DNA from: Candidatus Omnitrophota bacterium
GTDB taxonomy: Bacteria; Omnitrophota; Gorgyraeia; Gorgyraeales; Gorgyraeaceae
Reading direction: 5' to 3'
Length of the DNA: 45,777 bases
Assembly (NCBI GenBank): GCA_018819285.1
Contig: JAHJQM010000042.1
Location: 1 to 45,777 of the forward strand
Below the pieces are notes generated by a model. That model was not told the origin of the DNA. It saw nothing but the letters and a program-made list of their open reading frames with translations, and made no database searches. The translations under genes were made by a program, and so were the position numbers. Of the stretch, positions 36,581 to 45,777 are shown in pieces. Numbering within the stretch: position 1 is the stretch's first letter; each line of letters opens with the position of its first letter.

Positions 36581-37657
36581 TTATTCGATAAGCCTTGCGA
36601 GCGAGAATAACGGCATAAACATTGAAACTACAATAAATCCTACAACAAGGCCCATAAAAACTATAAGCAGAGGTTCCAAAAGAGAGGTAAGGCCGCTTAC
36701 TGCAACATCCACGTCATCTTCAAAATTATCCGCAATCTGCATCAGCATCTTTGCCAAATCACCTGTTTCCTCGCCTATATTTACCATTTTTGTAACAAGC
36801 GGAGGGAAAGCCTTGCTTGCCTCCATAGGCCCTGATACGCTTTCTCCCTCTTTGATACTATCCCGTATTTGTATAACTGCTCTGGCAATAAATTCATTTC
36901 CTATTGTATCTCTCACTGTTTGAAGCGCAGCGAGTATAGGAACTCCGCTTGAAAGTAATGTCCCCAGAGTTCTTGAAAATCTTGCGACACTAACTTGCTG
37001 TATCAAATTTCCTACAATAGGGATACGCAGCTTTAACTTATCAACTATCAATTTTCTACCAGGATTTTTTATAATTGCCTTATATAGTGCGATTATAGCT
37101 AGTGGCAAAAAAGGTATAAGAAACCATATGCGCCTCGTGACCTCGCTTATGACAATCAATATCTTGGTAGGAAGAGGCAGACTTCCTCCGAGTTCTGAAA
37201 ACATATTTGTAAAAGTAGGTATTACAAACACCATCAGCATTATTAGTATGAGAACTGCGACTATCATTACAAACATTGGATACATAAGCGCTGACTTTAC
37301 CTTATCCCTCAGCTTCTGCGTCTTATCCAAAAACTCAGACAAACGCTTAAGTATGTCTTCGAGCATACCTCCCAACTCTCCCGCCTTTATCATATTTATA
37401 TAAAAACCAGGAAATACTTTCGGAAAGTGAGCTAAGGCTTCTGAGAAATTGGAACCGCTTTCCACTTCATCTGCTATTGATTTTATAACGCTTTTTAAAC
37501 CCCCTGGCTCCAGTTGATCATGCAATGTCCTGAGGGCTTTTACAAGAGGTAGGCCTGCTGCTATAAGCGTGGCAAGCTGCCTGGTAAATAAAACGAGAGA
37601 TTTTGTGCTTACCTTTTTCTTGAAGTCTAATATTGCCAAAAATTTCGAAAAATCCAT
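36581..37657 (-). CDS. gspF: Type II secretion/type IV pilus inner-membrane platform protein (GspF/PilC)
   Basis: This 358-residue protein has the two homologous GspF domains. The first has LVLFTRQLATLIAAGLPLVKAL and GELGGMLEDILKRLSEFL. The second has RFSRTLGTLLSSGVPILAAL and GEETGDLAKMLMQIADNFE. Three membrane helices are visible near 120-145, 170-190 and 325-350. It anchors the assembly ATPase and drives pseudopilus growth. It is shorter than the usual 400 residues because the small N-terminal segment before the first domain is missing. It starts three bases after the coiled-coil gene. Confidence 0.92.
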   Translation of the reverse strand: MDFSKFLAILDFKKKVSTKSLVLFTRQLATLIAAGLPLVKALRTLHDQLEPGGLKSVIKSIADEVESGSNFSEALAHFPKVFPGFYINMIKAGELGGMLEDILKRLSEFLDKTQKLRDKVKSALMYPMFVMIVAVLILIMLMVFVIPTFTNMFSELGGSLPLPTKILIVISEVTRRIWFLIPFLPLAIIALYKAIIKNPGRKLIVDKLKLRIPIVGNLIQQVSVARFSRTLGTLLSSGVPILAALQTVRDTIGNEFIARAVIQIRDSIKEGESVSGPMEASKAFPPLVTKMVNIGEETGDLAKMLMQIADNFEDDVDVAVSGLTSLLEPLLIVFMGLVVGFIVVSMFMPLFSLARLIE

Positions 37658-37660
37658 CGT

Positions 37661-38839
37661 TCATCTTTTTACAACAGTATCATTGATTTCTATGCTCAAG
37701 CCTTCTCTTAGATCTTTGATATCGGCTGCGGCAATTCTGTCGCGCATCTGTATAATCTCTACTGAGCCAAGAAATGTTTCTCCCCTGTAAACATTAAACT
37801 TATTCCCTATGTCAATCCCGTCCTGCTTGCCGATATCTATTACAACAAAATTATGCTCCTTGTTGACTGTAACAACCCTGCCTTTTAACTCCAGCTTTTC
37901 TCCTAGCCGTTCCAAAGAAGGAGTTGTAAGCTTGGCTGTTTTCTGGGCACGAATAGGGGGCAAGTCCACTTCTTCAGGACTATGATAAGCCTCTGCCCTT
38001 GCCTCCTGAGACTTAACTGCGCTTTCCTGAAGCGCAATTTTAAATTTATTTATTTCTTGATTTTTATATTCCGCATCGCTTTCAAGCCTGGCGAGTTTTG
38101 CCTTCATGCTTTCTTTTTCAGCAAGGAGGCTATTATATTCATTCGCTATCTCTTCAAATTTTGATATCTTGGACTTAAGTACACTATTCTCCATTGCAAT
38201 TGTCTCGGATATTCTCTTGTCATCTTTATTTACATTTTTTTCTCTAAGAAGGTCATTGCTTATAATTTGCGCTACCTGTTCAGAATCTTTCAGACTTTGC
38301 TCAATTAAATTTTTCTCTTCCTGTAACTTGGCAAGCATTAGATCCTTGTTTACGCTTTCAGCCTTTAACCTGGATATAATCTGATTCTTCGGCTCTATAT
38401 CATTTTTTAATCTTTCTATCTCCACTTCCAAACCAACCTTCTGTTTAATAAGGTTTGCGACAAACATATCTGATTCCATTTCTCTCAATCTCTTTTCAAG
38501 AAACGCTTTTCCTTTTTTGACACTCGCGAGCTCTCTCTTCAAACCATCCCTTTCGCTAACCGCTATCTCGTGTTCAGATCTCAGGTCAGTATGGCTTACC
38601 TTCAGGGTGTTAAATCTTTCTTCTATGGACTGTAATTTTGATTTTAATTCTGTCTTTTCTCTGGTTGCCAGCGCAAGTTCCGTGCTTAGTTTATCCATAG
38701 TGGTTTTAAATAATTCTTCCAGATTTGTATATTCATTATAGAGTTTTTCCTTTGAAAGAAAAAACCAAGCTGTGCTAAAGCTGCTTAACACCACTAATCC
38801 TACCAATATCCATAGTATTGACCGCAGTGTTTTATCCAT
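37661..38839 (-). CDS. Membrane-anchored coiled-coil protein with a FlgT-C-like terminal domain
   Basis: This 392-residue protein has one N-terminal membrane helix (about 9-28), then roughly 270 residues of heptad-patterned coiled coil rich in Lys, Glu and Leu. A C-terminal beta-rich domain follows (LELKGRVVTVNKEHNFVVIDIGKQDGIDIG, split here as LELKGRVV then FVVIDIGKQDG). That domain resembles the FlgT C-terminal fold found in periplasmic proteins. It is probably a periplasmic spacer or tether coupled to the secretion genes that follow three bases later. No family name can be given with certainty. AAGGAG precedes the start. Confidence 0.6.
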   Translation of the reverse strand: MDKTLRSILWILVGLVVLSSFSTAWFFLSKEKLYNEYTNLEELFKTTMDKLSTELALATREKTELKSKLQSIEERFNTLKVSHTDLRSEHEIAVSERDGLKRELASVKKGKAFLEKRLREMESDMFVANLIKQKVGLEVEIERLKNDIEPKNQIISRLKAESVNKDLMLAKLQEEKNLIEQSLKDSEQVAQIISNDLLREKNVNKDDKRISETIAMENSVLKSKISKFEEIANEYNSLLAEKESMKAKLARLESDAEYKNQEINKFKIALQESAVKSQEARAEAYHSPEEVDLPPIRAQKTAKLTTPSLERLGEKLELKGRVVTVNKEHNFVVIDIGKQDGIDIGNKFNVYRGETFLGSVEIIQMRDRIAAADIKDLREGLSIEINDTVVKR

Positions 38840-38869: not shown

Positions 38870-41800
38870 TTACCTTTTTTTTATTATACCATATATTCTT
38901 CTTCGAATAAATACTAATAATCGTTTTGGCATTAAAACTATTGCATTAAAATCTTCGAAGATCATATAAACGCTTGGTACCAAAAATAATGTCATTAGTG
39001 CGGAAGATGTGAGCCCGCCAATAACAGTTATCGCAAGAGGAGACCACAGGTTTGCTGATTCGCTTCTATCAAATGCCATTGGCACCAGCCCGAGTATTGT
39101 CGTAGACGTAGTCATAAATATCGGCCTGAATCTGTTCTCGCCTGCCATAACGGACGCGCGCAGTATATTCCAGTATTTGTCAGTGTGACTGCCGTCTTTT
39201 TTAATCCTAAGGAAATTTATCCTATCAACTAATATGATAGCGTTATTCACAACAATACCAGCCAGCATTATAGCGCCTATAATAACGCCTCTTGATATAG
39301 GCTTATGAGCTATAAAAAGCGCTGTTACAACTCCAATTATTGCAAGCGGAACTGAAAGAAGTATTACAAAAGGCTGGATAAGCGACTCAAATAAAGACGC
39401 CAGCACCATAAAAACTAATAATAGCGTTATCCATAGAACGCCTGGCATCTGGACATAGGGTGACGTTAGAGAAAAAGGAAACGCTGATAATTCTTTTTCA
39501 TTTTTTATATTCCTTTCATAATCTCCGCCTATCCTCCAGTAATAATCCTTTGGAAGTTCCATGTCCCCAAGGCTTGCCTTTGCTTTTTCCACTGCCTTCT
39601 GCAAAGACCCTTTTGAAACCATTGCTGTTATTTGCACAATTCTTGTCTTATTCTTTCTTATAATTTCACTCATGCCTATGTCTGGCACAAAATCCGCGAT
39701 CTGCTCTAGAAATACAGAGCCACCTTCCGGAGTATATACTGTAAGTCTCCTTACATCATCCACTTTAGCTCTGTATCTTTTCTGTAGCCTTGTTATAGTC
39801 TCTATTTCTTTTGCTTCGGTATGGAAAAGTGTAGCCCTTAGGCCTTTTATTTCTCCATGCAATGTCTCTGCTACTTCCTGGGTTGTAAATCCAAACGAAC
39901 TTGCCTGCTGTTTATCTATTTTAACAAGCCATTCAGGCCTGCCGCTTATTCTGGACATTCTTATATCCTGAAGGCCGTCTATACTGCCAAGCCTCGTAGC
40001 TATCGAGATAGCGGTTTCTTTTAATATCTTGTAATCGTATCCACAAAGATCCAGAGTAAGTTCTTTTAACCCGCTTTCTTCTAATTCTGAAAAATATATA
40101 AAACCTCCCTTATAATGCCTTGCAACTGTATCCCCTTCCAGCCGTATAGCATCCATTACTTCTTTTGTAGAGCTGGCTCTGTCTTTTATAGGCTTTAATT
40201 TAACATATATCTTTGAAGACCCTGGCTCAATCCTGGATGTAAAAGTCTTTATCTCTTTTACATTAGTAAGCTTTTCCTCTAATTCTTTCGCCATCTTATC
40301 AGTGACATCTAATTTAGCGCCAGGCTCTAATTCAACAAATATTGTAAAGCGGCCTTCTTCTGCATCTACCATAAATTCTTTTTGCAATTTCATACCGAAA
40401 AATAACGCAACAGCTAATATCAAAAATGCCGCGACCAGCAATAGATACCTAAACCTCAGTGCCATAAATAGGCCTTTTCTGTATAAGCCTTTTATTTTAA
40501 TAACCACGCTCTTCTTTAACGCCTTCCGTTCTTTTTTTTCTATTGGCTTACGCGCCATCTGGCTTAATAAAGTAGGCACCAGAGTCATAGCTACAAATAA
40601 ACTCGTCAATAGAGAATAAGTAACGGTAAAGGCAAGCCCGCTCCAAAGCATCCTTGTTTCTTTATTTACAAATACAAATGGAAGAAATACTATAACAGTG
40701 GTTATCGTGGATGTAATTATCGCCAGAGCCATTTCTGAAGCGCCTTCTATAACCGCATTTTTATCCTCACCTCTCCAACCGAGCGAAGGCAAAAGTTCAG
40801 ACCTTTTTTTATCCACGTTATCAAGCACAACTATTGAGTTATCTATAAGCATACCTATGCCAAGCGCAAGGCCGCTTAATGTCATTACATTCAAGGAAAG
40901 CCTCTGAAAATACATAAGGATAAACGTAAACATAACTGAGATTGGAATAGTAACGCTTATTATAAATGTCGGCCTTAGGTCTCTCAGCGTTATCAAAAGT
41001 ATCAGGACTGAAAGAAATGCGCCAATTACAAGAGAACTCTTCACTGCATCTATCGCATTATTAATTACATCTGCCTGATTAAGCGTAGCCTTTATATAAA
41101 TGCTTTTATCTATTATATTTTTAATCTGATTAAGTTCTTTTTTTATGCCACTAATTACTTTGATTGTATTGGCTGTAGATTCTTTCTGGATATATATTGA
41201 AACTACCGGCTCTATATCTGTCCTTGCATAATTTGAAGGATCTGCATAAGAGTCCTTCACGGTTGCAATATCCTTAAGTTTTATAACAGCTCCTTGCGGG
41301 GTAATGCTCACGCCTATATTTTCCATATCTTTAACGCTTTTAAAAGCTCCTATAGCCCTTATAAGGTATCTATTTTTCGTCTTGGTAATGTCTCCCAAAA
41401 GCAGGTTGAAATTATTCGCTCCTAATGAACTCACTACGCTATTTATAGGCACGTGATAAGCCTGAAGCCTTGCCTGGTCTATCTCAACAAGAATCTTCCT
41501 TTCTTTCCCTCCATATAAATCCACATTTGCCACGCCTTCTACCCTTAAGATCCTTTCCTTAATCTGCTCGTCTACGACCCTCCTCAACGCTTCTACTGTA
41601 TGGATATTGCTTGTAACTGCAAGCACCATTATAGGGGTATCGGATTCTTTATATTGGGCTAATATTGGTTTTTCAATTTCCCTGGGAAGTTTGTCTTTTA
41701 TCCTAGAAAATTTTTCTCTTGTTTCCAGCGCTGCAAAATCCATATTAATGCCAGGCTCAAACTCAAGCCATATCGTGGATTCTCCTGCCTTTGATGTAGA

Positions 41801-42046
41801 ATAGACGTTTTCAAGATGGGTAACCGTAGACACAGCTTCTTCTATCGGCTTTGTAACCATACTCTCGACTTCCTGCGGAGGCATGCCTCCTCTTACTTCT
41901 ATAATTATACTGATGTCTCCGTAGGAAATATTCGGCTTTAGTTCAACAGGAAGCCTATACAGAGAAACTACGCCCAAAATAACAATACCTATAAAGAACA
42001 TTGTTATGCTTACAGGCTTATTTACTGAATAACTTGGAAGGCTCAT
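38870..42046 (-). CDS. RND efflux permease (second of a tandem pair)
   Basis: This 1058-residue inner-membrane proton-driven exporter has the RND layout: TM1 (PVSITMFFIGIVILGVVSLY), a porter domain, and TM4 with GLALGIGMLIDNSIVVLDN, which supplies the proton-relay aspartate. The second half repeats this with GAIMLAGIVVNNAIILVDR and RPIFMTTSTTILGLVPMAF. It follows the winged-helix-tailed permease with an ATGA overlap. An adaptor plus two different permeases is the arrangement of MdtABC-type heteromeric pumps. Its substrate is unknown. The translation start is coupled, with only a weak ribosome binding site. Confidence 0.93.
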   Translation of the reverse strand: MSLPSYSVNKPVSITMFFIGIVILGVVSLYRLPVELKPNISYGDISIIIEVRGGMPPQEVESMVTKPIEEAVSTVTHLENVYSTSKAGESTIWLEFEPGINMDFAALETREKFSRIKDKLPREIEKPILAQYKESDTPIMVLAVTSNIHTVEALRRVVDEQIKERILRVEGVANVDLYGGKERKILVEIDQARLQAYHVPINSVVSSLGANNFNLLLGDITKTKNRYLIRAIGAFKSVKDMENIGVSITPQGAVIKLKDIATVKDSYADPSNYARTDIEPVVSIYIQKESTANTIKVISGIKKELNQIKNIIDKSIYIKATLNQADVINNAIDAVKSSLVIGAFLSVLILLITLRDLRPTFIISVTIPISVMFTFILMYFQRLSLNVMTLSGLALGIGMLIDNSIVVLDNVDKKRSELLPSLGWRGEDKNAVIEGASEMALAIITSTITTVIVFLPFVFVNKETRMLWSGLAFTVTYSLLTSLFVAMTLVPTLLSQMARKPIEKKERKALKKSVVIKIKGLYRKGLFMALRFRYLLLVAAFLILAVALFFGMKLQKEFMVDAEEGRFTIFVELEPGAKLDVTDKMAKELEEKLTNVKEIKTFTSRIEPGSSKIYVKLKPIKDRASSTKEVMDAIRLEGDTVARHYKGGFIYFSELEESGLKELTLDLCGYDYKILKETAISIATRLGSIDGLQDIRMSRISGRPEWLVKIDKQQASSFGFTTQEVAETLHGEIKGLRATLFHTEAKEIETITRLQKRYRAKVDDVRRLTVYTPEGGSVFLEQIADFVPDIGMSEIIRKNKTRIVQITAMVSKGSLQKAVEKAKASLGDMELPKDYYWRIGGDYERNIKNEKELSAFPFSLTSPYVQMPGVLWITLLLVFMVLASLFESLIQPFVILLSVPLAIIGVVTALFIAHKPISRGVIIGAIMLAGIVVNNAIILVDRINFLRIKKDGSHTDKYWNILRASVMAGENRFRPIFMTTSTTILGLVPMAFDRSESANLWSPLAITVIGGLTSSALMTLFLVPSVYMIFEDFNAIVLMPKRLLVFIRRRIYGIIKKR

Positions 42047-45000
42047 TTTAGCTCATACCATCTTCCCGGCCCCAGAGGACCTTCTGCTTTCAGAAAACCT
42101 TTATCCATAAGATGCCTCAAATCCCGCGCCGCAGTAGGTATTGATATCTTAAATAAATCCGCATATTCTTTTCTTGTAATCCTTCCTGATGTTTTAATAT
42201 ATTCCAATAATTGAATCTGCCTTTTGGTAAGCTGTATGTTCTTTGGCTCCTCTTGCTTTTTAGGCGCGTATTCTATTTTAAATACCTGAGGTTTTTCCAG
42301 CGCCTTTAAAGGCATTACAATTACATCTTTTACAACCTCAGGCTCATCAATTTGCAGTGGTTCATTGCCGCTCACTACCTTAACGGGTTCTATTTTAATT
42401 GCTTCAGGAGCAGCTTGCGCTGTAACGGACGCAACTTGCTCTTTCTTTCTTTCTAACCACGTTGCAGTCATAGTATAAAGCGTTGGAATTACAAAAAGCG
42501 TCAGAAAAGTGCAAACAATAAGACCTCCCATCACAGCTATTGCCATAGGGGCTTGAAGCTCAGAACCTTGTCCAAGGCCAAGCGCTAGCGGAAGAAGGCC
42601 TAAAACCGTAGTAAATGATGTCATCATTATCGGCCTGAGCCTGTTTGACCCTGCCTGGATAACCGCTGTCAAAAGATCCTTCTCTTTACTTCTAAGAATA
42701 TTTATTTTATCTATTAGAACTATCCCATTATTGACAACAACCCCGCCTAGCATTATTACGCCTAATATAACCACAACGCTGATAGACGTATGAGTCAGAA
42801 ATAAAATCCATGCAACGCCTATCAAAGATAATGGCAGGGTAAACATAATAATAAAAGGCTGCCAGAATGATTCAAATTGGCTCGCCATAATCATATACAC
42901 CAGCAGCACTGAAAGGATTAACGTGAACATCAAACTTAAAAACGATTCTTTCATTTCCTGGTTCTCGCCGGCTAATTGTATTGTAAAATCCTTCTCGATC
43001 TGCTTTGCGGCCTGCTTTTTTATATCAGCGTACTTGTCCATTATAGAATCTATCGCTTTATTGACATCCCCTATTACCTTATCGATGGGCCTGCCCGTAA
43101 CATTTGCGGTCATTAGTATTATCCTCTGCTGATCAAGCCTTTTTATTTCGCTCGGACCGACTCCATGCGAAATATAAGCAACCTCTGAGAGCGGGACATC
43201 TATTCCTAATGGCGAGTGTATTAATATATTTCTTACGCTTGAAAGCTTTTTTCTGTCCTCAGGCCTTAGCCTTACCTTTATATCTATCTCCCTCCCCTGC
43301 TCTTTAAACTTTGTAGCGGTAATTCCTTTAATAGCCACATGAGCTGCCTGAGCTATAGAACCTACCGAGAGATTGTATAAAGCAGCTTTATCCTTAATAA
43401 TATTCACTTTTGTTTCTGGCGCCGGAGGCGCAAGGCTCGTTCTTATACCATATATACCTGGTATTTTGGCCAGTTCAAAACGAAGTTCTTCATAAAGTTT
43501 TTTTGTAAAACTAAGATCTTGGCCTTTTATCTCTATCACTATAGGCGCGCTGCCCATCAATGCACTCTTAAAAATACTATCTTGCAAAATATATTCTATT
43601 TCTGCACCTTCTAGATTTTCTTTATCTAATTCTTTTTTTAGATTCTGTATTATTTGAGAGGTATTGAGCTTGCCTTTTTGTTTACCTTTTTTAAGATTAA
43701 CAATAATATTGGCCTGATGTGAACCAAGGGTCTCTATCATATCCCCCATGCCTCTTTCTTTGCTGGAACCGATAGTGATCGCTATACTATCAACATCTTT
43801 ATTATTTAAAAGTTTTTCTTCTATCTTCCTAATGCTGGAATCCGTTATCTCAAGCCTTGTGCCTGTCATAAGATTAACTTTCATGGCAAATTCGCGCTGG
43901 TCTACCTTAGGCATGAACTCTTTATTAAGAAACCGGAATATAATCATGCTAAATAAAAACAGGATAAGAACTCCAAATATTACCAGTTTTTTATTTTTTA
44001 GCACAACTGGCAGAGACTTGCCATATACGCTTCCCATCCATTTGACCAATTTAAACTCTGAACCTTCTGTCATAGGCGCTTCCTCGACAGAGCCGGGCTT
44101 TTTCCTGCTACTTAAAGTTACAAACAAAGGAATTAACGCTAAAGACACATATAATGAGGCCATAAGAGAATATGTAACAGTTATAGCAACCTCTTTAAAG
44201 AGTTGACCCGCGATGCCTGTAACAAATATCATAGGTAAAAATACAACTACTGTTGTCATGACAGAGCCCCATATAGGGCTTTCAACCTCATTTGCGCCAA
44301 TCCTTGCAGCCTCTTTTAATTCTTTTCCACTCTGAATATGATTTGATATATTCTCAATAACCACAATACCTGCGTCTACAAGCATACCTATGCCCAAGGC
44401 AAGTCCGCCGAGAGAAAGCATATTCAGCGAAATGCCACTAAAATACATAAGCGTAAATGTAATCATTATTGAGATAGGAATAGACAAAGCAACTATCAAT
44501 GCGGGCTTTAACTTTTTTAAAAATAACCACAAAACCAGGAATGCTAAAAGTCCGCCCTGCCATGCAGCGTCTCCAACATCCCTGATGGATTTTCTGATAA
44601 AAATAGACTGGTCATATACTATATTTAAGTTTATACTTTTAGGCAGGTCTTTTTTTATATCATTAATCCGTTTCTTTATGCTGTCCGCCACCTGCAATGT
44701 ATTAGAACCTGCCTGTTTCAGAATAGATACCGATATATTTTCTTTCCCGTTAAACCTGGAAATACTGGTACGTTCCTGAAATGTATCCTTTACTTCTCCA
44801 ATATCTTTCAGGTATACAAGCCTCACCATTTCTTCTTTTTTCTTTTGAGCCTCCAGGTTTTCTAAAAGAGACCTCTGACTTTCAGGCTCGTCGCTCCCTA
44901 CAACCGTATCCTTTATCTGAGAGATTATTTCAAACTCCCCTATAGTGCGTATCAGATATTCGTAAAAATGCTCTTCTATGTTACCTGCGGGATAATTAAG

Positions 45001-45630
45001 ATTTGAGGCTTTTAACGCTTCCACTATTTTATTTATTCCTACGCCTGATGCCCTTAGCCTTGCCTGGTCAATTGATACAACTATTTCTCTCTCCAGCCCG
45101 CCTGTTATATTGCACGAGGCAACACCGGGCACTTTTTCAAGTTCATCTTTTATAAATTTCCTGGTAAGTTTTAAAAGTTCCAAAGGCGTTTTTTCGCCTG
45201 TAACGCTAAGGGTCATTACGGGGAGTTCGAATGGATTGAATTTCATTACTATAGGATCTGCTGAGCCCAGAGGAAGTCTTTCTTTCACAAGGTCTATCTT
45301 TTCCCTCACGCCTAGCGAGGCAAAATCCATATTTGTTCCCCAGTTGAATTCTGTAGTCACAAGGGAAATACCTTCCTTTGAAGTGGAGCTGATCCGCTTA
45401 AGACTGCCGACAGTGCCGACCGCCTCTTCTATGATCTTAGTTATAAGGGTTTCTACTTCTTCCGGAGCGGCGTTTTCGTATGTAGTTACAATGGTAAGTT
45501 GGGGATAAGAAATGGCTGGAAATAATTCCTGAGGCAACCTGCCGAGGGAGATCAAGCCCATAAGCACAATCCCCAGGAAAATCATTATTACAGTTACAGG
45601 TCTATTTATCGAAAGGTCTGGTAGCTTCAT
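42043..45630 (-). CDS. RND efflux permease with a C-terminal winged-helix DNA-binding domain
   Basis: This 1195-residue protein is a complete RND permease to about residue 1060 (TM1 PVTVIMIFLGIVLMGLISLG, relay motif GLALGIGMLVDAGIVVIEN, late motif GVIMLGGVVVNNGIVLIDK). A charged, proline-rich linker of about 65 residues follows. The final 66 residues form a winged helix: LTKRQIQLLEYIKTSGRIT, then RKEYADLFKISIPTAARDLR and HLMDKGFLKAEG. This matches DeoR-, Fic- and RecG-tail-type HTH domains. The C-terminus of RND pumps is cytoplasmic, so the domain could reach DNA. The frame is continuous. The start overlaps the adaptor stop and the end overlaps the next permease, both as ATGA. Confidence 0.92.
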   Translation of the reverse strand: MKLPDLSINRPVTVIMIFLGIVLMGLISLGRLPQELFPAISYPQLTIVTTYENAAPEEVETLITKIIEEAVGTVGSLKRISSTSKEGISLVTTEFNWGTNMDFASLGVREKIDLVKERLPLGSADPIVMKFNPFELPVMTLSVTGEKTPLELLKLTRKFIKDELEKVPGVASCNITGGLEREIVVSIDQARLRASGVGINKIVEALKASNLNYPAGNIEEHFYEYLIRTIGEFEIISQIKDTVVGSDEPESQRSLLENLEAQKKKEEMVRLVYLKDIGEVKDTFQERTSISRFNGKENISVSILKQAGSNTLQVADSIKKRINDIKKDLPKSINLNIVYDQSIFIRKSIRDVGDAAWQGGLLAFLVLWLFLKKLKPALIVALSIPISIMITFTLMYFSGISLNMLSLGGLALGIGMLVDAGIVVIENISNHIQSGKELKEAARIGANEVESPIWGSVMTTVVVFLPMIFVTGIAGQLFKEVAITVTYSLMASLYVSLALIPLFVTLSSRKKPGSVEEAPMTEGSEFKLVKWMGSVYGKSLPVVLKNKKLVIFGVLILFLFSMIIFRFLNKEFMPKVDQREFAMKVNLMTGTRLEITDSSIRKIEEKLLNNKDVDSIAITIGSSKERGMGDMIETLGSHQANIIVNLKKGKQKGKLNTSQIIQNLKKELDKENLEGAEIEYILQDSIFKSALMGSAPIVIEIKGQDLSFTKKLYEELRFELAKIPGIYGIRTSLAPPAPETKVNIIKDKAALYNLSVGSIAQAAHVAIKGITATKFKEQGREIDIKVRLRPEDRKKLSSVRNILIHSPLGIDVPLSEVAYISHGVGPSEIKRLDQQRIILMTANVTGRPIDKVIGDVNKAIDSIMDKYADIKKQAAKQIEKDFTIQLAGENQEMKESFLSLMFTLILSVLLVYMIMASQFESFWQPFIIMFTLPLSLIGVAWILFLTHTSISVVVILGVIMLGGVVVNNGIVLIDKINILRSKEKDLLTAVIQAGSNRLRPIMMTSFTTVLGLLPLALGLGQGSELQAPMAIAVMGGLIVCTFLTLFVIPTLYTMTATWLERKKEQVASVTAQAAPEAIKIEPVKVVSGNEPLQIDEPEVVKDVIVMPLKALEKPQVFKIEYAPKKQEEPKNIQLTKRQIQLLEYIKTSGRITRKEYADLFKISIPTAARDLRHLMDKGFLKAEGPLGPGRWYELK

Positions 45631-45777
45631 TGAGCTTGAGTATTTTCCTGGACTTCTATAACTTGAACCGGCATTTCTTCTTTTAGTTCCTGAGGTGTTT
45701 CTGTAACTACCAATTCACCTTCGGCGATACCTTCTCCTATAACAGAATAATCTGTAGTAACGTATTCTACCTTGACC
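45627..45777 (-). CDS. C-terminal end of an RND membrane-fusion (adaptor) protein, partial
   Basis: The last 49 codons of a gene entering from the right edge read VEYVTTDYSVIGEGIAEGE, LVVTETPQELKEEMPVQV and end in QENTQAQ. The pattern GL.EGD.VV..G...L..G..V is the usual membrane-proximal end of HlyD/AcrA-type adaptors, and a tandem pair of RND permeases follows with an ATGA overlap. The rest of the protein lies outside the window, so signal peptide and hairpin domains cannot be assessed. Confidence 0.75.
   Translation of the reverse strand, partial: VKVEYVTTDYSVIGEGIAEGELVVTETPQELKEEMPVQVIEVQENTQAQ

Follow-up and report, generated by a model that had tools for sequence, protein, structure and literature searches.

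Can a pump subunit of a bacterial exporter also be a DNA-binding protein that acts on genes? The question is raised by one gene in the DNA analyzed here, a stretch of 45,777 nucleotides from a Candidatus Omnitrophota genome that we call the window. An initial annotation read this gene as an RND permease that continues in the same frame into a linker and a winged helix, and proposed that the tail might act on the pump's own operon, whose promoter was expected to lie outside the window. We know of no RND exporter with a DNA-binding domain, nor of one that acts directly on genes, and full-text searches of a literature collection for an RND-HTH fusion returned nothing relevant.

Domain layout and fold of the pump subunit

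The gene, rnd1, is a single open reading frame at 42043..45630 on the minus strand, uninterrupted from ATG to stop over 1195 codons. In its product, RND1, residues 5-1054 match ACR_tran (PF00873, E 5e-236), and the permease part, residues 1-1054, corresponds to 42469..45630 (minus strand). The nearest solved structures are those of MdtB (the closest), CmeB, MexB and AcrB, and the alignments to them end at query residue ~1054-1069. The domain is full-length and the model shows the helices expected, arranged as two six-TM repeats with loops in the periplasm, which places the permease in the HAE-type ACR_tran family. Asp419 in TM4 (..LVDAG..) and Asn968 are kept without change by 33 relatives. 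The second relay Asp and the Lys of AcrB appear to be replaced in RND1, as judged by eye against AcrB.

The permease is followed by a cytoplasmic linker, residues 1055-1131 (42238..42468, minus strand), and by the winged helix, residues 1132-1195 (42046..42237, minus strand). In the full-length model, pLDDT is mostly 70-90 in the permease, falls below 50 in residues 1066-1131, which are disordered, and is ~90 in the winged helix. Residues 1137-1180 match HTH_DeoR (PF08220) with 23.7 bits against a curated cut-off of 21, and the score rises to 26.9 bits when the tail is scanned alone. The AlphaFold2 model of the tail, made with 25 homologues, is an H-H-H-E-E winged helix with a mean pLDDT of 92.9. 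Pfam and this model together give the elements of a MarR/DeoR-type winged helix, namely, an HTH, a recognition helix and a two-stranded wing. The recognition helix is the third helix of the models (residues 1164-1176, IPTAARDLRHLMD; 42103..42141, minus strand) and carries the near-invariant PTAARD motif. Foldseek searches with the tail returned the winged helices of AspA, MarR (TMq 0.76-0.82) and Fic2, the top match being a plasmid centromere-binding protein. As modeled, RND1 is a complete AcrB-type RND permease followed by a disordered linker and a confidently predicted winged helix. The termini of RND permeases are cytoplasmic, as established for AcrB, so the tail of RND1 should face the DNA. 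The layout given in the initial annotation is thus confirmed by the reading frame, Pfam and the models; the strand and the start of the winged helix at residue ~1132 are additions to it.

The pump operon

The tailed gene sits in a TolC-MFP-RND1-RND2 operon, the TolC (PF02321) and HlyD (PF16576) genes being immediately upstream of rnd1. The window contains the 3' end of the membrane-fusion protein gene (45627..45777, minus strand), the remainder lying beyond it (L005:5628-6842(-), PF16576 HlyD_D23). In the TolC of the operon, also just beyond the window (L005:6855-8693 (-)), the outer membrane efflux domains are preceded by an N-terminal TonB_C domain (PF03544, residues 72-137). On the other side of rnd1 is the gene of the partner permease RND2 (38870..42046, minus strand), whose start overlaps the rnd1 stop by 4 bp. 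RND2 has 1058 aa, matches PF00873 (E 2e-218) and lacks the tail. Next come a gene for a membrane-anchored coiled-coil protein (37661..38839, minus strand), which follows RND2 in genus and family relatives, and a type II secretion / type IV pilus F-like gene (36581..37657, minus strand), with a 77-95% identical gene at the equivalent position in relatives. Immediately upstream of the operon, in this genome and in many relatives, is the gene of a ROK-family repressor with an N-terminal wHTH.

Distribution and constraint of the tail

The same fusion is present in eight other genomes of the genus (77-93% identity in the tail) and in other genera of the family (59-71%). Among 334 sampled Omnitrophota genomes about 52 have it, and it is found across many families of the class. 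Searching 84,980 species genomes for the two most conserved tail motifs, an approach blind to any fusion elsewhere that uses another winged helix, gave 55 confirmed tail loci, all from assemblies titled Omnitrophota or Omnitrophica (one is Ca. Saelkia, placed in Omnitrophota). The RND1 permease precedes the tail in 50 of the 55, the other five being fragments of the locus only, and RND2 follows in 52.

In 25 aligned relatives the winged helix is near invariant (consensus ..RQ..LLE.L...G.ITRKEYA..FKIS.PTAARDLK.L.DKG.L.A.GPLGPGRWYELK), and the recognition-helix residues ..PTAARDL[KR].. are kept. The linkers of relatives, by comparison, range from 37 to >300 residues, and their sequences are unrelated to each other. 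Seven members of the genus gave a dN/dS of 0.062 in the permease and 0.055 in the winged helix, against 0.471 in the linker. The winged helix is under the same constraint as the permease, with a relaxed linker between them.

Two state changes account for the tail on the RND1 gene tree, or three counting one exception. The exception, G238, has a tail-less RND1, and the same winged helix is found beside it (L226:3637-4869 (-)) on a 410-aa protein with a long coiled coil and an apparent N-terminal membrane segment. That the winged helix is here on a membrane-anchored neighbor suggests that a membrane-held winged helix belongs to the system even when it is not fused to the pump. Three loci that appeared to be tail-less members of tail clades (L207, L212 and L228) proved to be cut at contig ends, and the missing tail lies on a different contig of the genome concerned. 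An apparent RND1-RND2 fusion in another genome (L222:2864-9085 (+), a 2073-aa frame in G206) was also discarded, the joint being a run of masked bases.

Tandem boxes at the operon promoter

The operon promoter is indeed beyond the window, upstream of tolC. An alignment of 12 genomes of the same family shows there direct repeats of a 9-bp box, ACCGTATCA-TA-ACCGTATCA, just upstream of TTGACA-17-TATACT, a near-consensus sigma-70 promoter; in the present genome the boxes are at contig position C50:48713-48732. The repeat consensus is TAACCGTATCA, and most pairs have an 11-bp period (one helical turn), a count that is biased by loci having been fetched partly through pair searches. The placement of the boxes varies among families. 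They are upstream of a -35 element at the pump promoters of f1, f3, f10, f11 and f46, and near or downstream of the likely promoter in f6, f22 and f52. The present genome (1.56 Mb) has only two matches to the tandem site at ≤3 mismatches, one at the operon promoter and the other at yidC-parA. Two imperfect pairs are present in this genome, and none that satisfies the strict pattern given below. Within the window, near-matches to the box occur at about chance level, as expected since the operon promoter lies outside it.

Co-occurrence of boxes and tail

The 334 Omnitrophota genomes were scanned for a strict pair, defined as AC[CT][AG]TATCA occurring twice, 0-3 bp apart. Such pairs were found in 29 of 52 genomes with the tail versus three of 282 without it (Fisher p 2.8e-24), and a reversed control pattern gave two matches in all 334. 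The three tail-less genomes are G002, G302 and G262. The first, of the same genus, has the yidC-parA pair, and the pump operon was not found in its fragmentary assembly of 300 contigs. In the second, RND1 is cut at a contig end; it is the only one with a pair among 81 genomes that have RND1 without a visible tail. The third has a single weak site. Pairs follow the tail within families as well: in f3 they are present in 3/5 genomes with the tail versus 1/58 without, and in f46 in 3/6 versus 1/16 (stratified exact p 1.8e-5). These within-family contrasts carry the argument, because the tail approximates a single event on the RND1 tree, where an independent-pairs test has one contrast and no statistical power.

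The association is also seen at the promoters themselves. With a matrix trained on the family of the present genome, pairs of at least 18 bits were found upstream of tolC in 8/12 tail operons of other families, whereas the best score in 24 tail-less operons was 12.4 bits. In a de novo comparison of 9-mers upstream of tolC that excluded that family, ACCGTATCA ranked first (8/11 tail versus 0/24 tail-less operons). The signal is in close pairs only, as genome-wide counts of single ACCGTATCA boxes showed no enrichment. The strict pair is missing in 15 of 44 genomes with a canonical tail, some of which have single boxes or other spacings. In G238, where the winged helix is on the coiled-coil protein, boxes were sought near the operon and none was found. 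The tails of family f17 have an altered recognition helix (LPIADRELEEL) and an altered wing, and strict pairs are found in 0/8 of its genomes. At the f17 operons a conserved promoter was found, and an alternative tandem box was looked for and not found. The f17 operons (L061, L315, L318, L319 and L320) have a conserved GCAAA(A/G)GGAATTGC just before the tolC start codon.

None of the results that would have spoken against the initial annotation turned up: close homologues have the tail, its model is that of a winged helix, and the recognition residues are preserved. As regards action on the pump's own operon, the proposal of the initial annotation has gained support, in that tandem ACCGTATCA boxes, putative sites of the tail, abut the operon promoter and track the tail across the phylum. 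As a candidate role, direct action of the pump on its own operon through DNA binding has good comparative-genomic support.

Other sites in the genomes

Genomes with strict pairs have one to four of them. The box contexts that were fetched belong to three main classes, namely, pump promoters, the origin-proximal yidC-parA region, and genes of very large exported or anchored proteins. The first class is exemplified by f1, f3, f10, f11 and f46. In the second, which was found in at least seven families, the boxes are in the rnpA-yidC-parA region, either between yidC and parA or within the yidC coding region; the yidC-parA site of the present genome has four boxes. In f22 and f32 (L292, L293 and L311), several ACCGTATCA boxes are within the yidC coding region, where they encode a repeated Asp-Thr-Val in the N-terminal part, past the first hydrophobic segment.

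In the third class, the boxes are at the promoters of the very large proteins, and the first gene often encodes an 82-aa membrane protein. The gene of the very large protein adjoins RND2 in f10, f18 and f52; in f11 and f46 it and tolC point away from each other across a common site. Peptidase_C39 domains were found in four of the six very large proteins examined. Those adjoining boxes at L282, L276, L291 and L300 have >1690 aa and are incomplete in the fetched stretch. The giant proteins have a signal-like N-terminus, KKWVKVIAV..FL.YDIAWA in the family of the present genome. In five loci of that family (L276, L280, L282, L284 and L287), the giant locus opens with the 82-aa membrane protein and begins immediately 3' of a gene for tRNA-Glu(CTC), the tandem box separating the two. 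Elsewhere (L297, L300, L306, L307 and L308), a small cysteine-rich protein (CKICxxEFxPxKxxPxQxxC...) is encoded beside a box that the giant gene has in common with the pump. Omnitrophota are known for giant ORFs, a trait as yet unexplained (PMC10066038), and the box-linked genes may be of that class.

A probable DNA-binding pump and its alternatives

We think it probable that RND1 is both a pump subunit and a membrane-integrated DNA-binding regulator of its own operon and of a small envelope regulon. The sequences show a conserved and constrained fusion with its fold, together with conserved boxes that co-occur with the tail; that the tail binds the boxes, with what sign it regulates, and whether it depends on transport are parts that we infer. 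RND1, RND2, the membrane-fusion protein and TolC would form a tripartite exporter, probably with a mixed RND1/RND2 trimer like that of MdtB/MdtC. The winged helix would hang in the cytoplasm from its flexible linker and bind tandem direct repeats TAACCGTATCA at an 11-bp period. A 20-bp candidate target, ACCGTATCATAACCGTATCA, can be named for it (residues ~1130-1195). MdtB2C is a trimer with two copies of MdtB, and a trimer with two copies of RND1 would likewise offer two tails to two boxes. The predicted targets are the promoter of the tolC-mfp-rnd1-rnd2 operon, yidC-parA, and, in many relatives, sites upstream of the very large exported or anchored protein genes. As subunits build up in the membrane, their tails would come to sit on the tandem boxes, adjusting how the pump and its client envelope genes are expressed. 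The abundance or state of the pump would most likely thus feed back on expression of the pump and the accompanying envelope proteins, and transport itself might change the availability of the tail. We prefer negative autoregulation as the sign, given that the promoters come close to consensus and have boxes to either side; near-consensus promoters with varying box placement would favor repression or tethering over classical activation. A point against this account is that boxes within the yidC coding region (f22, f32) are odd for a plain promoter operator. A membrane-held RND trimer would also seem an awkward platform for DNA binding, but ToxR and CadC do bind DNA while held in the membrane.

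The tail could instead be a membrane tether, with which the pump fixes yidC-parA, its own operon and the giant exported-protein genes to the inner membrane, so that their products are expressed and inserted locally (transertion) or the origin is positioned. We regard this as possible but unlikely, and give the same low weight to its corollary that, by anchoring chosen loci, the pump would tie the position of genes, their expression and membrane insertion to whether the export machine is present. The main target classes, which are the origin region or genes of membrane or exported proteins, fit a tether, as do the boxes directly before parA or within yidC codons, which are unexpected for a promoter operator, and the top Foldseek match to a plasmid centromere-binding protein. 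There are precedents in VtrA, which captures its locus at the membrane (PMC9977878), and in Noc, which brings DNA to the membrane (PMC4331003). However, the boxes are positioned relative to promoters at the pump operon and the giant genes, and likeness to the AspA fold is common to MarR-type folds generally. Moreover, there are just one to four strict pairs per genome, and site sets of the Noc or parS type are more numerous.

The boxes could also be bound by another, co-inherited regulator, such as the upstream ROK repressor, with the tail binding DNA weakly or non-specifically, or binding a protein. In favor are the position of the ROK gene, with its N-terminal wHTH, directly upstream in the present genome and many relatives, the high affinity of the CbFic2 winged helix for random DNA (PMC10628234), and the RND1 tree, which by itself, with one independent contrast, leaves room for a co-inherited factor. 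However, at least 13 tail-less operons have a ROK gene upstream and no strong boxes, while four tail operons whose fetched loci show no ROK gene (L123, L133, L134 and L145) have strong boxes. The ROK repressor is thus disfavored as the owner of the boxes, and the boxes follow the tail within families too; we consider another regulator improbable. It is very hard to believe that the winged helix is carried along as a harmless passenger and does nothing related to DNA. Many Fic and SLFN/AlbA_2 proteins in these genomes end in a similar winged helix, which would be a ready source for domain accretion, but the reading is disfavored because the winged helix is constrained, with a dN/dS of 0.055, a recognition helix and wing near invariant over many families, and two or three changes on the tree. 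An artefact of assembly or gene calling, namely, read-through into a separate small gene, is refuted because the same in-frame fusion recurs in dozens of independent metagenome assemblies, one of which is a single-contig chromosome (L127, CP070655.1).

If RND1 is a regulator as we propose, the pump controls its own operon directly and a separate regulator becomes unnecessary. The analysis goes beyond the initial annotation in finding the same sites at yidC-parA and at giant exported-protein genes, and the winged helix of one relative on a neighboring protein. It defines a candidate regulon for an uncultured phylum of tiny, often host-associated bacteria, one that includes very large exported proteins of a kind whose role is unexplained (PMC10066038).

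Comparison with known systems

Within these genomes, the tail is most closely related to the winged helices at the C-termini of SLFN/AlbA_2-HATPase_c_4 and Fic proteins, and its closest solved relative is the wHTH of Coxiella Fic2 (8cil, E 7e-5). The winged helix of CbFic2 binds DNA, and CccR, a related Fic protein, represses its own promoter (PMC10628234). However, the Fic and SLFN/AlbA_2 proteins are soluble enzymes, and RND1 has only their winged helix and not their catalytic part. Its wing (GPLGPGRWYEL) and helix (PTAARDLK) also set the RND1 tail apart from theirs as a distinct subgroup. To exporters of the MdtBC/AcrB type RND1 is alike in that the permease matches over its full length and in that two tandem RND genes accompany those of an MFP and TolC, as in mdtABC. 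It differs from them in its tail: the matched solved chains have ~1025-1069 aa, and none of those shown carries a winged helix.

As in ToxR, CadC and VtrA, the winged helix of RND1 would be held at the inner membrane and act from that position on DNA. In those three proteins the DNA-binding domain is N-terminal and is joined by a single TM helix to a periplasmic sensor, whereas in RND1 the winged helix is C-terminal and the membrane part is a 12-helix transporter. Judged by its domains, RND1 would work like a membrane-integrated one-component regulator, yet it is not a member of the ToxR/CadC group, since the architecture differs. Noc resembles the proposed RND1 in tying specific DNA sites to the membrane (PMC4331003), but it does so through many sites around the chromosome and is not a transporter. 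In CbrA, an SLC5 transporter joined to a histidine kinase, a transporter and a regulatory output are also combined in one polypeptide (PMC7096432, PMC13022988). A Pfam scan found no kinase domain in RND1, which sets it apart from transceptors of the CbrA type. CbrA signals by phosphotransfer to CbrB, whereas the output of RND1 would be direct DNA binding and its transporter is an RND exporter. If our reading is correct, the pairing of a transporter with a regulatory output, seen in CbrA, reaches further in RND1, where an active exporter would itself bind DNA.
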